This document shows positions 7,774 through 32,416 of a stretch of DNA of 64,000 nucleotides, piece after piece. Origin of the DNA: Faecalicoccus acidiformans. GTDB lineage: Bacteria > Bacillota_I > Bacilli_A > Erysipelotrichales > Erysipelotrichaceae. Location of the stretch: positions 1-64,000 of the forward strand of contig NZ_JACHHD010000010.1 of the NCBI RefSeq assembly GCF_014202635.1, given 5' to 3'. The first letter of the stretch is position 1. Each line of letters opens with the position of its first letter. The position numbers were made by a program, and so were the translations under genes. The notes below the pieces were generated by a model. The model was given only the letters and a program-made list of their open reading frames with translations, was not told where the DNA came from and searched no databases.

Positions 7774-8056
7774 AAAAAGCCCTCATCTCTAAGGACTTTC
7801 ATCCTGAGAGACGAGGACTAAATTGTATAGTTTCCCGCGGTACCACTCTCTTTGCCGTAATCATACAGCCGCTCATTGTGATCAGTCTAAACGAATCACT
7901 TTCTCTTGATAACGGTGAGTCTCCGTCTTTACTTACTTCATTCAGCAAAGCTGCTCAAGGGTGAGTGTGTGAGTGGTTCCCTTATGATCTTTCACCAAAT
8001 AATCACTCTCTGCAAAGCGAAACGTATCACAGCTCCCTATCACTGCGTTTTGATTT
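7774..8056 (-). promoter_or_regulatory. T-box riboswitch of the leucine operon
   Basis: The minus-strand leader has the T-box sequence AGAGTGGTACCGCGGGAA (7831-7848), which pairs with the uncharged tRNA acceptor end. A terminator follows it (stem 7779-7790 with 7807-7818, T-tract 7774-7778). The 5' half can fold into a long stem I. CTC (Leu) triplets occur near the expected specifier position, around 7960-7975, but I cannot fix the loop by eye. Uncharged tRNA-Leu should promote readthrough into leuACDB. Confidence 0.93.
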
Positions 8057-12857: not shown

Positions 12858-13079
12858 ATAAAAAGCGACAGTCATCTCAAAGGACGTCTGTCGCACGCGG
12901 TACCACCTTTGTTCACATACATAGTATGTGCACTTCATTATTCTTTTAACGCAAGATTACGGCACACTTTTTCAAGGGCAATTCAAAGGGAGTAAACAAA
13001 GGTCCTCTCAGAAAGTTTTCACCAGCCACTTTCCTCTCTTATCAAAGCATCCTTCATCCATATCCTTATCACTATCGTT
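12858..13079 (-). promoter_or_regulatory. T-box riboswitch of thrS
   Basis: The minus-strand leader carries the T-box sequence AAAGGTGGTACCGCGT (12895-12910) and a terminator (arms 12865-12871 and 12888-12894, then a T-tract). An ACC (Thr) triplet at 13001-13003 is a plausible specifier, but a nearby ACT also occurs. Confidence 0.93.
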
Positions 13080-13085
13080 AGCTAG

Positions 13086-27252: not shown

Positions 27253-28587
27253 TTAATATTGATTCTGCTCAATAAAATCAACAACACGCTGTACATAGCT
27301 TTCGCACAAATCATCTGTTTTTGCCTCAACCATAACTCGAACCAGAGGCTCTGTTCCACTCGGTCTGACTAAGATTCGACCTTCATCTCCAAGTTCATCA
27401 GCAACTTCCTGGATCACATTCAATAACCGAGGATCTTTTAACGCCTTTTCTTTACAGTTAACTTTAACATTTTTCAGCAGCTGCGGATAAATGAACAAAC
27501 CATCGGATAGCTCTTCTAGACTCTTGTTTGTTTCTTTCATGATCTGCAAAAGCTTCAAAGCTGTCAAAAGGCCATCTCCTGTCACTGCATGTTCATAGAA
27601 GATGATATGTCCGCTTTGTTCTCCGCCCAGATAATAGTCATTTTTCTGCATCTCTTCAAAGACATACTTATCACCGACCGGAGTTTGAATATAATCGATC
27701 TTATTTTCATCCAGCGCTTTATAAAGTCCTAAGTTAGCCATTACCGTGGTAACGCACATATTTTTGTTCAATGAATTTTGAGACTTCATATAACGAGAAC
27801 AGATATATAAAATATAATCCCCGTTGACCAGTTCCCCTTTTGAATTCACTGCAATCAAGCGATCTGCATCTCCATCAAAGGCAAGACCAATATCGAAATC
27901 ACCTTCGCGCACATTTCTTTGTAGTTTTTCAGGATGAGTCGATCCACAATCCTTATTGATATTGATTCCGTTAGGGGAATTGGAGATTGCTTCTACAGTA
28001 GCCCCCAAAGAATCTAAAGTCTCAATAGCCGTACTGGTAGCTGAACCATTCGCATTATCTACAGCAATCTTAAATCCGCTCAAATCAACAGGGACAGTCT
28101 CTTTCAGCCAAGACATATAGATTTCCAATCCATCCTGCCAATCGAAATACTCTCCAATCTGACTTCCTGTTTTAAGGTCCAGCGAAGTCTTTCCATCCAT
28201 GTAATCTTCAATCTGCAATAAGACGTCCTCTTCCATTTTTTCTCCATTATGATTGAAAATCTTGATTCCATTATCATAATAAGGATTGTGACTGGCCGAT
28301 ACCATGATCCCGCAGTCAAATCTTTCTTTACGAATTAAATAACTGACTGCCGGGGTAGGACAAACACCTAATAGATACACCATCGCCCCCATGGAAGTTG
28401 CTCCCGCTGCCAGACCAAGTTCAAACATATCTCCGCTTAACCGCGTATCTTTTCCGATCAAGATCTTCGCATGGCGGTCTTTGCCATAATACATTCCTAA
28501 ATACTGACCAATACGGATGGACATATCTAATGTTAGATCTTCATTGGCTCGTCCTCGTACGCCATCCGTTCCAAAATATTTACCCAT
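27253..28587 (-). CDS. glmM: Phosphoglucosamine mutase
   Basis: GlmM converts glucosamine-6-phosphate to glucosamine-1-phosphate for peptidoglycan precursors. The 444-residue protein starts FGTDGVRG, has the phosphoserine loop SASHNP (Ser near 99), metal-binding DGDADR, the sugar loop GGEQSGH, and the C-terminal RPSGTEPLVRVM. The cdaA-cdaR-glmM order is conserved across Bacillota, where GlmM can bind and restrain CdaA. Confidence 0.97.
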   Translation of the reverse strand: MGKYFGTDGVRGRANEDLTLDMSIRIGQYLGMYYGKDRHAKILIGKDTRLSGDMFELGLAAGATSMGAMVYLLGVCPTPAVSYLIRKERFDCGIMVSASHNPYYDNGIKIFNHNGEKMEEDVLLQIEDYMDGKTSLDLKTGSQIGEYFDWQDGLEIYMSWLKETVPVDLSGFKIAVDNANGSATSTAIETLDSLGATVEAISNSPNGININKDCGSTHPEKLQRNVREGDFDIGLAFDGDADRLIAVNSKGELVNGDYILYICSRYMKSQNSLNKNMCVTTVMANLGLYKALDENKIDYIQTPVGDKYVFEEMQKNDYYLGGEQSGHIIFYEHAVTGDGLLTALKLLQIMKETNKSLEELSDGLFIYPQLLKNVKVNCKEKALKDPRLLNVIQEVADELGDEGRILVRPSGTEPLVRVMVEAKTDDLCESYVQRVVDFIEQNQY

Positions 28588-28598
28588 ATTGAATACTC

Positions 28599-29393
28599 CT
28601 ATTCTGTATCTGTATCGTTTTTCTCAACCGTTGCTTCTATAGTCGATGGATCAATCTCCACCTGGACACGATTTCCTTCCGCATCATAAGCAACAACAGT
28701 AGCTTCTGTCGTGTACTGATCGCCATTTGTGAATCCACTAACATCCACGATTGCCCGAACAAACCGAATTGCATTCAGTTCATCCTCCGTAGCGCGTATC
28801 TTAACAGTCGAAGAAGATAAAGTTGGCGTTTTAAAATCAGAAGCTCTTTGTCCTGAACCAATCAACATTTCCGGATCAACTGTAAAGGATCGCTCTTTCT
28901 TTGCCGTGATTGTAGCAGTAACACTAGATGGTGATAAAGTGGCTTCAATCGAAGAAGGCAGATCATCTAAGCTCAAATCAATAATAAAACTGCCCTCCTC
29001 ATAGGGACGCAGATCCGCTGTAACACTCAAATTTGTGTGCTGTTGTCGATACACTTGGATTTCGGCAGCGTTTCCTGTCAGAGTCACTTGAACACTATTT
29101 GGAATTCCGCTGACTTCATACTGTTCCTGATCACTCAGGATATTCACATCCACATTACCAAGATTTACCGTAGTCGATGTATTATCAAACAATTCATACC
29201 GAATATCCTGATAATCCACTACCGCACAAATAACAAGAGAGATCATCAAGGAAACGATCAACGATCCTGCTTTATTGAAGACAATTCGATCGAATAACTT
29301 ATTGACTCGACGATAAAAAGAGCCGATTGCATTTTTAAAGGATTCGATCCAGCCTTTATTCTTATTTTGCGGAGATCTGTTCGACTCATTCAT
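28599..29393 (-). CDS. cdaR: CdaR, YbbR-domain regulator of CdaA
   Basis: The 264-residue protein has one membrane anchor (about 42-62) and extracytoplasmic YbbR repeats (two to three, including VNILSDQEQYEVSGIPNSV). CdaR modulates diadenylate cyclase activity in other Bacillota. It overlaps cdaA by 8 nt. It is shorter than B. subtilis CdaR, with fewer repeats. Confidence 0.9.
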   Translation of the reverse strand: MNESNRSPQNKNKGWIESFKNAIGSFYRRVNKLFDRIVFNKAGSLIVSLMISLVICAVVDYQDIRYELFDNTSTTVNLGNVDVNILSDQEQYEVSGIPNSVQVTLTGNAAEIQVYRQQHTNLSVTADLRPYEEGSFIIDLSLDDLPSSIEATLSPSSVTATITAKKERSFTVDPEMLIGSGQRASDFKTPTLSSSTVKIRATEDELNAIRFVRAIVDVSGFTNGDQYTTEATVVAYDAEGNRVQVEIDPSTIEATVEKNDTDTE

Positions 29394-30318
29394 GTGAATT
29401 CACCCCCTGATCCCGCAAATCCACTATGGCCAGAGGCTGAATACGCTCATCCGCAGAATATTTTGTTTCACCAGGTTTTCGGCTTCGCGTCAAACCTAAA
29501 TTTTTTGCGGTGTTGATAACAGGCCTCAACAAAGAAGAGGTCGCTCCTTCCTCTCTATCCGGCACCAGAAGATTCATCAGAAGGCGATGAAGCCCTTCTG
29601 CTTTATATTGAGTGAGCTGACCATTCATTGCGACAGATATATTTCCAGTTTCTTCACTCACAATGATCGTGATGGAATCGGTAATCTCACTGATTCCGAC
29701 CGCAGCACGATGGCGGGCTCCATATTTGCTTGGCAGATCTTTAGTGGTTGGCGGAAAATAAGCCGCTGCACATGCAATCTTATTGCCGATGATGATGACA
29801 GCTCCATCGTGCATCGGCGTTCCATATTGAAAGATCGTCCCTAACAGTTCACTGGAAACAACCGAATCCATCTCGATTCCAGTATGGACATAATCCTCCA
29901 TTGATGTATTTCTTTGAATCGAAATCAAAGCTCCGGTTTTTGTTTTAGACATTTGCGCACAGGCTTTGACCAATTCATCGATCATACTAATTTGCTCATC
30001 ATGTGATACATTCAGCCCTAAAATCGAAGAAGTTTTCCCGAATTTTTCAAGCATAGCACGAATCTCCGGCTGAAAAATAATCATAATGACAACTACTCCC
30101 CAATTCACAAAGATATTGATTAGGTAGTTCAAGGCATTCAGCCCCAAGATTGCAGATAATCCTTGTACGATCAAAATAAACAAGATCCCCTTTGCGATCT
30201 GGATCGTTCGAGTATTGTTGCGGACAATACGCAAAGCATAGTAAACCAAAGCCCAAATCACGATCACATCGAGGATCAATCTAAGGATCAATGAAATATC
30301 ACTTGTCGTAATATCCAT
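29386..30318 (-). CDS. cdaA: Diadenylate cyclase CdaA
   Basis: CdaA makes c-di-AMP from two ATP. The 310-residue protein has three N-terminal membrane helices (about residues 10-85) and a DAC domain with DGA (171-173) and RHR (202-204) active-site motifs. It is longer than the usual ~270 residues because of a C-terminal tail. Its likely degradative counterpart, gdpP, is also in this window. Confidence 0.97.
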   Translation of the reverse strand: MDITTSDISLILRLILDVIVIWALVYYALRIVRNNTRTIQIAKGILFILIVQGLSAILGLNALNYLINIFVNWGVVVIMIIFQPEIRAMLEKFGKTSSILGLNVSHDEQISMIDELVKACAQMSKTKTGALISIQRNTSMEDYVHTGIEMDSVVSSELLGTIFQYGTPMHDGAVIIIGNKIACAAAYFPPTTKDLPSKYGARHRAAVGISEITDSITIIVSEETGNISVAMNGQLTQYKAEGLHRLLMNLLVPDREEGATSSLLRPVINTAKNLGLTRSRKPGETKYSADERIQPLAIVDLRDQGVNSHE

Positions 30319-31181: not shown

Positions 31182-31617
31182 AAAAAACGAGACTCTTCAC
31201 AAGCCTCGTTTTCTATATTCTTTATTCAATATTTATTTCTTTTCATCTATCGATCAGCGACTGCATAACGTATTTTCTACAGCATTTCCTCTATTGTTAT
31301 TCAGGTGTCTGTGCTCTTTTTATGCAGACTTTAGATGACTCCTTAGTTAATGATCTATTGTCCTTTTATTCTGATCATGGATCTTGTAACAGCCAAATAT
31401 CGGTCTGTTCAATTCTGACATTCTATCATCAACCAAGTCCAAGGAATGTTTTTTTCGGTTTTATCCGACCTGACGTTTGGAGTCTTCTCTCCATAGCTTC
31501 GTGCTTCGCCAGGAAACTTGTTCCCGGCTATTATTGTATTGTCATCTTCCCACCGCTCTCTATCAGCTTAAGTTCTTTCAAAAGGAATTCGTCTATGCCT
31601 ATCTAATCCCTTTGTTC
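31182..31617 (-). ncRNA. Candidate structured noncoding RNA, about 435 nt
   Basis: No convincing protein is encoded between 31108 and 31669. On the minus strand this interval has its own promoter and ends in a hairpin (31184-31191 with 31205-31212) followed by Ts. Several hairpins are visible between: 31508-31528, 31478-31493, 31455-31468, 31384-31412 and 31350-31378. A long-range 8-bp pairing joins 31320-31327 and 31261-31268. I do not recognise the family. The conserved cores of RNase P RNA, tmRNA and SRP RNA are not seen. Confidence 0.55.
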
Positions 31618-31623
31618 AACTCT

Positions 31624-31651
31624 ATTATATCGTCGATGACTCTGAAGACAA
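31624..31651 (-). promoter_or_regulatory. Promoter of the candidate noncoding RNA
   Basis: TTGTCT (31646-31651) and a perfect TATAAT (31624-31629) are 16 nt apart on the minus strand, right after the LytTR gene stop. Confidence 0.65.
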
Positions 31652-31669
31652 TACAAATGGATAAATCGG

Positions 31670-32356
31670 TCAGCCAAGTGTCCGATTTGACTTTTTCAAG
31701 GCTAAGATCTTTCGCTTTTGTTGTCGAGAAAGTGGAATCCTATCCCCATTATCCAATTCAACCTCATCTTTATACCATGCTACGATATGAATGGCGTTCA
31801 CTAAATAAGAAACATGAACTCGTAAAAATCCATATGGTGTAAACACTTTTTCAAGATCAGACATATTTGCTCTTTCGTGAAATTCTCCCTTTTTTGTATG
31901 GAAATAGATCATTTTTTCCATTTTATCCAAATAATAGATATCCGGATAAGGCAAGAAAACATGGACTCCATCGTAATTCAATTCATAAGAATCCATTTGA
32001 TGACTCAAAGATAAAAGCTGATCTTGGACCTGCAGCACTTCTTGACGAATATTTCCTTTATCCAGATATAATACTCGATGGCGCTGATCATTTCCTTTGG
32101 TTCGAATGGGGTTCTCGCACAAATAGACAAACATGGAATTAGGATGGTCATGAACGAAAACGCTTTCTAAACGAGGCGTTTTAAAAACTTCGTCAAAAAC
32201 AAAAAGCTGGTACTCTTCTTCTTTGAGACGCCTGGCCAGATCAGATGCTTTTGTAAAGTGGCGGAATGTCCAATCTTGATACGCATAGATCTTAGAAAGA
32301 GCCAAAGCAACTTCCATTGATTCATTTTCATATTCGAGAATCGCAACCTTGATCAT
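31670..32356 (-). CDS. LytTR-family transcriptional regulator with receiver-like domain
   Basis: The 228-residue protein has an N-terminal receiver-like domain (D55 in LFVFDE could accept phosphate; the rest is divergent) and a C-terminal LytTR DNA-binding domain (about 125-225; DIYYLDKMEKMIYFHT, FLRVHVSYLVN, IPLSRQQK). No kinase gene adjoins. It appears to be transcribed from a promoter inside the murA terminator, with the ATG at or next to the start of transcription and no SD. Targets are unknown. Confidence 0.85.
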   Translation of the reverse strand: MIKVAILEYENESMEVALALSKIYAYQDWTFRHFTKASDLARRLKEEEYQLFVFDEVFKTPRLESVFVHDHPNSMFVYLCENPIRTKGNDQRHRVLYLDKGNIRQEVLQVQDQLLSLSHQMDSYELNYDGVHVFLPYPDIYYLDKMEKMIYFHTKKGEFHERANMSDLEKVFTPYGFLRVHVSYLVNAIHIVAWYKDEVELDNGDRIPLSRQQKRKILALKKSNRTLG

Positions 32357-32362
32357 ATTTTT

Positions 32363-32392
32363 ATTCTAATCCAAAAAAGACTGTAAAATCAA
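32363..32392 (-). promoter_or_regulatory. Promoter of the LytTR gene, with -35 in the murA terminator loop
   Basis: TTGATT (32387-32392) and TAGAAT (32363-32368) are 18 nt apart. The -35 is the loop of the murA terminator. The -10 lies 6 nt before the LytTR ATG. Confidence 0.5.
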
Positions 32393-32406
32393 TTACAGTC
32401 TTTTTT
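32370..32406. terminator. Terminator of murA
   Basis: A 14-bp perfect stem (32373-32386 with 32393-32406), including its own A/T tracts, can act in both directions. It follows the murA stop. Confidence 0.88.
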
Positions 32407-32416
32407 ATAGAAATGA

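Follow-up and report, generated by a model that had tools for sequence, protein, structure and literature searches.

What is encoded by the 435 or so nucleotides between a LytTR regulator gene and a HAD gene in Faecalicoccus acidiformans, and what might the product do? An initial annotation of the 64,000-nucleotide stretch of DNA analyzed here (the window) had assigned this interval to a structured RNA with its own promoter and terminator. The RNA gene lies on the minus strand, as do all elements described below unless noted, at 31183..31617. Its length of about 435 nucleotides is estimated from the -10 element and the terminator, with a start near 31617 that is predicted from sequence and an end at the terminator T-run near 31183. 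The promoter that had been claimed, TTGTCT-16-TATAAT (31651-31624), is present, as is the strong intrinsic terminator, which has 16 pairs (31216-31180). Scans for such elements by themselves perform at chance level in the window (14 promoter-like sites observed and 14.7 expected; four terminators observed and 3.4 expected), so the case for an RNA gene depends on comparison. Among relatives the positions of both elements are conserved: terminators occur at the equivalent place, and the -10 lies at a constant distance from upstream repeats in 17 promoters. The predicted fold also stands apart from that of shuffled sequences (z = -5.9 with the terminator and -5.2 without it).

Among 60 relatives, blastn found clear homologs within the genus and in four further genera of the family. 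A covariance model (R1, 131 positions) built on the conserved 5' core of the RNA (31433..31560) gives matches with E values from 1e-9 to 2e-27 and identifies RNAs of this type, termed class A, in 15 of 272 genomes and 8 of 59 genera of the family. A scan of named genomes with the RNA pattern matched Faecalicoccus pleomorphus, Faecalitalea cylindroides, Holdemanella biformis, H. porci, Catenisphaera adipataccumulans, and Merdibacter. Eleven of the 17 core pairs vary on both sides, and core covariation is 0.466, compared with 0.237 ± 0.038 after shuffling and no more than 0.22 in slid controls, although the independent genera behind this comparison are few. The core contains three hairpins. Changes on both sides occur in all eight pairs of hairpin A (31508..31528) and in three of the five pairs of hairpin C (31455..31468), in which 97% of cells are paired. 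The stem of hairpin B (GGAGAGAAGACUCC, 31479..31492) is invariant in alignment A1 and reads GGUGU/ACAUC in Merdibacter.

Several further helices have different pairing sequences across genera, namely a 5' hairpin, a long-range helix (P1), and arm D with its inner helices; the strands of these three were picked by hand and are supportive only. The 5' hairpin (AAAGGGAUU / AAUUCCUUU, 31581..31613) has different but complementary strands in relatives. P1 (31334..31546) pairs GAUGAC (31546-31541), which includes an AUG, with GUCAUC (31339-31334). Five or six of its six pairs are retained in eight class A RNAs but not in those of Catenisphaera and Merdibacter, and we therefore rejected P1 as a universal helix. 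Arm D (31342..31437) pairs CUUGGUUGAUGAU (31437-31425) with AUCAUUAACUAAG (31354-31342) outside its inner helices, and its strands covary. The 3' domain (31261..31327) is closed by CUGCAUAA / UUAUGCAG, which is the 8-bp pairing of 31320-31327 with 31261-31268 proposed previously. Comparison by eye shows compensatory changes in relatives, where the pairing reads CUGUAUAA/UUAUACAG, CUACAUAA/UUAUGUGG, or CCAUAUAA/UUAUAUGG. With compensatory base changes of this kind and homologs in eight genera, sequence comparison confirms the original observation that the interval is a real RNA gene on the minus strand.

The RNA does not belong to a cataloged family. Against Rfam 15, the window RNA has no credible match at gathering score or at E values up to 10. 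No family, raiA and OLE included, reaches its gathering score, and the absence of any credible covariance-model match agrees with the earlier statement that RNase P RNA, tmRNA, and SRP RNA cores were not found. The 13 homologous loci give weak, scattered matches, none of them recurrent. The RNAs raiA, OLE, ROOL, 6S, and RNase P RNA are of a similar size class, but none of their covariance models matches here. We also rejected the idea that the RNA is a missing housekeeping RNA, since RNase P RNA is present elsewhere (G000:C20:23405-23732, 278 bits), as is a 6S candidate (G000:C13:39615-39773) whose 39.6 bits fall below the Rfam cut-off of 46.4. The latter is probably the 6S RNA of the clade; the Rfam 6S model seems a poor fit to these bacteria. 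No earlier description of the RNA family was found in the literature, and by sequence it is a new, previously uncatalogued family.

The window RNA is found in the neighborhood of murA, the LytTR gene, the HAD gene, and cdaA. The HAD gene begins approximately 75 nucleotides downstream, a position that would suit a cis-acting leader or attenuator. However, this flank varies by genus (HAD, rubredoxin, gamma-glutamyltransferase-like, or asparaginase, the last on the opposite strand), and with no conserved downstream gene and a strong intervening terminator the RNA is not expected to be a cis leader, a reading that synteny contradicts and that we regard as highly improbable. Open frames on the opposite strand, of 94 amino acids (31322-31606) and 121 amino acids (31477-31842), could instead mean that the interval encodes a protein. 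However, the frame is lost in relatives beyond the genus and the base changes preserve RNA pairing by compensation, which leaves this explanation with a negligible probability. The initial annotation had found no supported protein in the interval. This holds for the plus strand, whose frames are rejected, but not for the strand of the RNA itself, which carries a tiny open reading frame (ORF) at 31545-31531. The description of the RNA as independently transcribed, structured, and not a housekeeping RNA agrees with its conservation, covariation, synteny, and comparison to Rfam; its trans-acting role is a part that we infer. The annotation did not include the link to the LytTR regulator, the repeats in the promoter, the tiny ORF, or diverged relatives of 260 to 905 nucleotides, all described below.

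The gene preceding the RNA (31670..32356; Pfam LytTR, E 1.3e-15) encodes a protein with a receiver-like domain and a LytTR DNA-binding domain. Its structure model has a pLDDT of 90, and the best Foldseek match is ComE (4cbv), followed by the LytTR domain of AgrA. The protein has its fold and the spacing of its repeats in common with ComE and AgrA, but differs from them in being confined to one copy and one family, and in the receiver-like domain. There the position of the acceptor Asp varies among D, N, H, and Q (alignment A2), so that the partner orthologs do not have the conserved phospho-acceptor of a canonical response regulator and control of the regulator by phosphorylation is doubtful. 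Searching with a profile of its N-terminal domain gives single-copy matches in 36 of 264 genomes of the order. These genomes all belong to one family, and a 245-genome sample of the phylum contains no match outside it.

Class A RNAs adjoin the LytTR gene in all 15 genomes (15/15); in G001 the two are on abutting contig ends. In genus g53 the RNA is one gene away, separated from the LytTR gene by an unrelated gene; five genomes have its 5' motif, without mismatches, roughly 1.5-2 kb downstream of LytTR. The patterns used found no RNA in the LytTR genomes G189, G190, G006, G061, G217, and G069.

When the 17 promoters are aligned without gaps and anchored on the -10, two direct repeats (about ACCnnTTTnCCA) are apparent 21 nucleotides apart, and the second stops immediately ahead of the -35. 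The self-match at offset 21 scores 94 compared with 68.5 ± 3.9 for shuffled promoters, and 100 shuffles yield at best 85 at any offset. Clear repeats are present in Holdemanella, Merdibacter, G287, and RUG11795, and drifted ones in Faecalicoccus and Faecalitalea. In the window the two halves match at only five of nine positions, so that this copy is weak: the distal half (AATCGGACA, 31679..31687), which is a diverged copy in Faecalicoccus, overlaps the last LytTR codons, and the proximal half (ATTTATCCA, 31658..31666) lies 21 nucleotides from it and ends just upstream of the -35. LytTR sites consist of 9-bp repeats separated by 12 bp (PMC2766830), which amounts to the same 21-nucleotide period as in the RNA promoters. 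Position, spacing, and strict linkage together suggest that the RNA is probably switched on by the adjacent, dedicated LytTR regulator. A search for the regulon with TTTNCC-N15-TTTNCC alone was too unspecific and was discarded.

The tiny ORF consists of AUG ACA AUA CAA UAA (31531..31545), encoding MTIQ, and is preceded by a near-invariant Shine-Dalgarno (SD)-like sequence (GAGAGCGGUGGGAAG, 31546..31560). The duplex of this site with the anti-SD has a predicted energy of -11.4 kcal/mol, compared with -4.8 ± 2.6 kcal/mol for random 20-mers. Energies across the RNAs are -11.0 to -12.7 kcal/mol, and those of genes in the window are -3 to -18. In class A the SD-like site is followed by AUG ACA AUA or a close variant, and a conserved frame-0 stop occurs at codon 4-6 in 14 of 14 scored RNAs, while the other frames are irregular. 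Insertions and deletions are of whole codons, which yields the forms MTI, MTIx, MKIK, and MTRDL, each followed by a stop; codon 4 is free, and may be Q, V, K, S, T, H, or absent. The nominal P for a stop by codon 6 is 1.3e-4 when the eight genera are treated as independent. However, the stop adjoins a paired element (UAG with CUA), and part of the ORF signal could therefore be structural. By sequence, then, SD, start, and stop are all conserved within the RNA, as expected of a dual-function RNA.

Inspection of the regions downstream of LytTR orthologs that had no model match revealed diverged, longer RNAs in other genera (class B). Lengths are approximately 350-480 nucleotides in class A, 490-905 nucleotides in class B, and 125-200 nucleotides in the unlinked class C of genus g2. 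Class B RNAs have the start of class A (TATAATAAAGGTGTAAAGAAA...GAGAGCGGTGAGAAnATG) and its promoter repeats, the long-class promoters having the same 21-nucleotide period, and most carry a similar motif, AAnTGAATA, on the 3' side, ahead of the terminator. Their ORF, MGxxx(R/G), ends in a stop at exactly codon 7 in 11 of 11 RNAs, with UAA, UAG, and UGA each represented (nominal P 1.5e-9 over seven genera treated as independent). One helix, which changes on both sides, has the last codon and the stop as its 5' strand; a stub alignment made to count this helix was thrown out of register by gaps and set aside.

In Merdibacter we observed a second RNA of about 260 nucleotides (L057 2162-2430; L088, L090) just upstream of rsmG. 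It agrees with the main RNA in its promoter repeats, its leader, and its SD-AUGACAAUA start, and has a 12-codon ORF, MTIESRCVKN(H/N)R and a stop. Neither this RNA nor those of class B match Rfam. In genome G015 another box-driven RNA follows the LytTR gene (L156, approximately 1620-1900), with a GTG start (MAQSDDY and a stop), and is itself followed by a T-box-like leader.

Genus g2 has no RNA after the LytTR gene in G004, G208, and G209. There a box-21-box-29-TATAAT pattern identifies unlinked, predicted transcripts of about 125-200 nucleotides (L211, L217, L220, and L212), which end in an SD, an ORF of 6-12 codons, and a terminator. The ORFs encode MNRFIS, MNKYIS, MKNKFIL, and the less similar MPMDISESSDS. 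The first two differ only by R/K, F/Y, and synonymous changes, and the hairpin that encloses them is fully re-paired; in two RNAs the SD and AUG are in the loop of a hairpin re-paired between genomes. These sequences hint that what unites the regulator's transcripts is the ORF or the peptide it encodes.

Such observations could mean that the tiny peptide (MTIQ, MGTSER, MNRFIS, or similar) is itself the main product, for instance a directly encoded signal or effector, and that the RNA structure serves only to control its translation and stability. LytTR regulators often serve peptide signaling, the tiny ORF is common to RNAs that otherwise have little in common, and MNRFIS and MNKYIS change conservatively while their hairpin is entirely rebuilt. 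However, codon 4 is free in class A, no gene for processing or export is linked, and a conserved structure of 435-905 nucleotides seems excessive for a product of 4-6 amino acids. We consider this explanation unlikely. Rather unlikely, too, is a purely non-coding, trans-acting RNA in which SD, AUG, and stop are incidental and kept for structure or for contact with a protein or the ribosome. GAGAGCGGUGRGAA is conserved beyond the needs of an ordinary SD, and helices overlap the start and stop codons, as such a reading would predict; it does not account for a spacing of exactly six codons in 11 class B RNAs whose codons vary and which use all three stops, for the whole-codon indels of class A, or for the canonical GAAAGGAG sites in genus g2.

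Minigenes and leader peptides (lambda bar, axe-txe mg2; PMC8708949) likewise have an ORF of a few codons and a strong SD, although translation of the ORF described here is a prediction and this ORF belongs to a long, stand-alone structured RNA. Minigenes deplete the last tRNA (PMC8708949), and ORFs of 3-7 codons with a strong SD could similarly tie up ribosomes or release peptidyl-tRNA, forming a growth brake under LytTR control. A large conserved RNA would be unneeded for this purpose and the last codon is not constant, which makes such an effect improbable.

On balance we favor, with some confidence, a stand-alone regulatory RNA that is activated by the LytTR protein, acts in trans, and has a fold coupled to translation of the tiny ORF. 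The RNA gene would serve as the output of the neighboring orphan regulator, which would bind the two direct repeats 21 nucleotides apart upstream of the -35 and thereby activate it. The 5' end of the transcript would present a ribosome-binding site and the four-codon ORF, with the AUG inside P1, the helix predicted to close the main multi-branched domain. With the AUG in P1, a ribosome on the ORF and the closed fold would be mutually exclusive, and translation or its failure may set the form, the stability, or the target access of the RNA. Because P1 is absent in Catenisphaera and Merdibacter, a switch of this kind may not be general. Two further points against the favored reading are the drift of the repeats in Faecalicoccus and Faecalitalea, the window included, and the differing peptide sequences of the RNA classes.

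Like RNAIII and VR-RNA, the mature RNA would then act in trans. Staphylococcus RNAIII of the agr system (RF00503), which is activated by AgrA, is likewise a large structured RNA driven by a LytTR protein via direct repeats, with a small ORF on its 5' side. However, the RNA described here has no sequence match to RNAIII, agrB, agrD, and agrC are absent from the genes adjacent to the regulator, and the regulator is an orphan without a conserved phospho-Asp. The ORF has 3-7 codons rather than 26, and no delta-hemolysin-like peptide is encoded in the window RNA. VR-RNA of Clostridium perfringens is described as a 386-nucleotide RNA that is activated by VirR and acts in trans on mRNAs (PMC4691137). 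Compared by description rather than by sequence, the two are alike in size, in having a LytTR regulator, and in trans action, which for our RNA is presumed. In contrast, VirR has a kinase, VirS, VR-RNA is encoded away from virRS, and the part of that account drawn on here describes no tiny-ORF family (PMC4691137). As far as tested, the RNA appears to work like RNAIII and VR-RNA and to be a member of neither family, VR-RNA being judged by its description only. If so, RNAIII and VR-RNA would be joined by a third lineage that has a long structured RNA working for a LytTR protein, and common gut commensals of humans and animals (Faecalicoccus, Holdemanella, Faecalitalea, Merdibacter, and relatives) would share an uncatalogued family of large RNAs produced directly under a dedicated LytTR regulator. 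More tentatively, it is possible that the RNAs form an undescribed system, with at least three architectures, in which one orphan LytTR protein controls RNAs that have in common, under selection, the translation of a 3-7 codon ORF built into the fold, and in which this act of translation, or the resulting peptide, is the regulatory event. These would then be a natural set of RNAs with conserved ORFs of 3-7 codons, which are too small for annotation pipelines to see.

A phage origin was considered and rejected, as the one pattern match to a viral contig (L064) falls in unrelated sequence. Four matches to genome contigs, in metagenome-assembled genomes of Verrucomicrobia, Alistipes, Alphaproteobacteria, and Clostridia, were attributed to chance. 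Elsewhere in the window, a hairpin and T-run resembling an intrinsic terminator (32363-32410) separates murA from the LytTR gene, which may therefore have its own promoter. We also observed two T-box leaders (7804-8052 and 12877-13081) and, downstream of the HAD gene, an operon of glmM, a YbbR-like gene, and cdaA (27253-30318).
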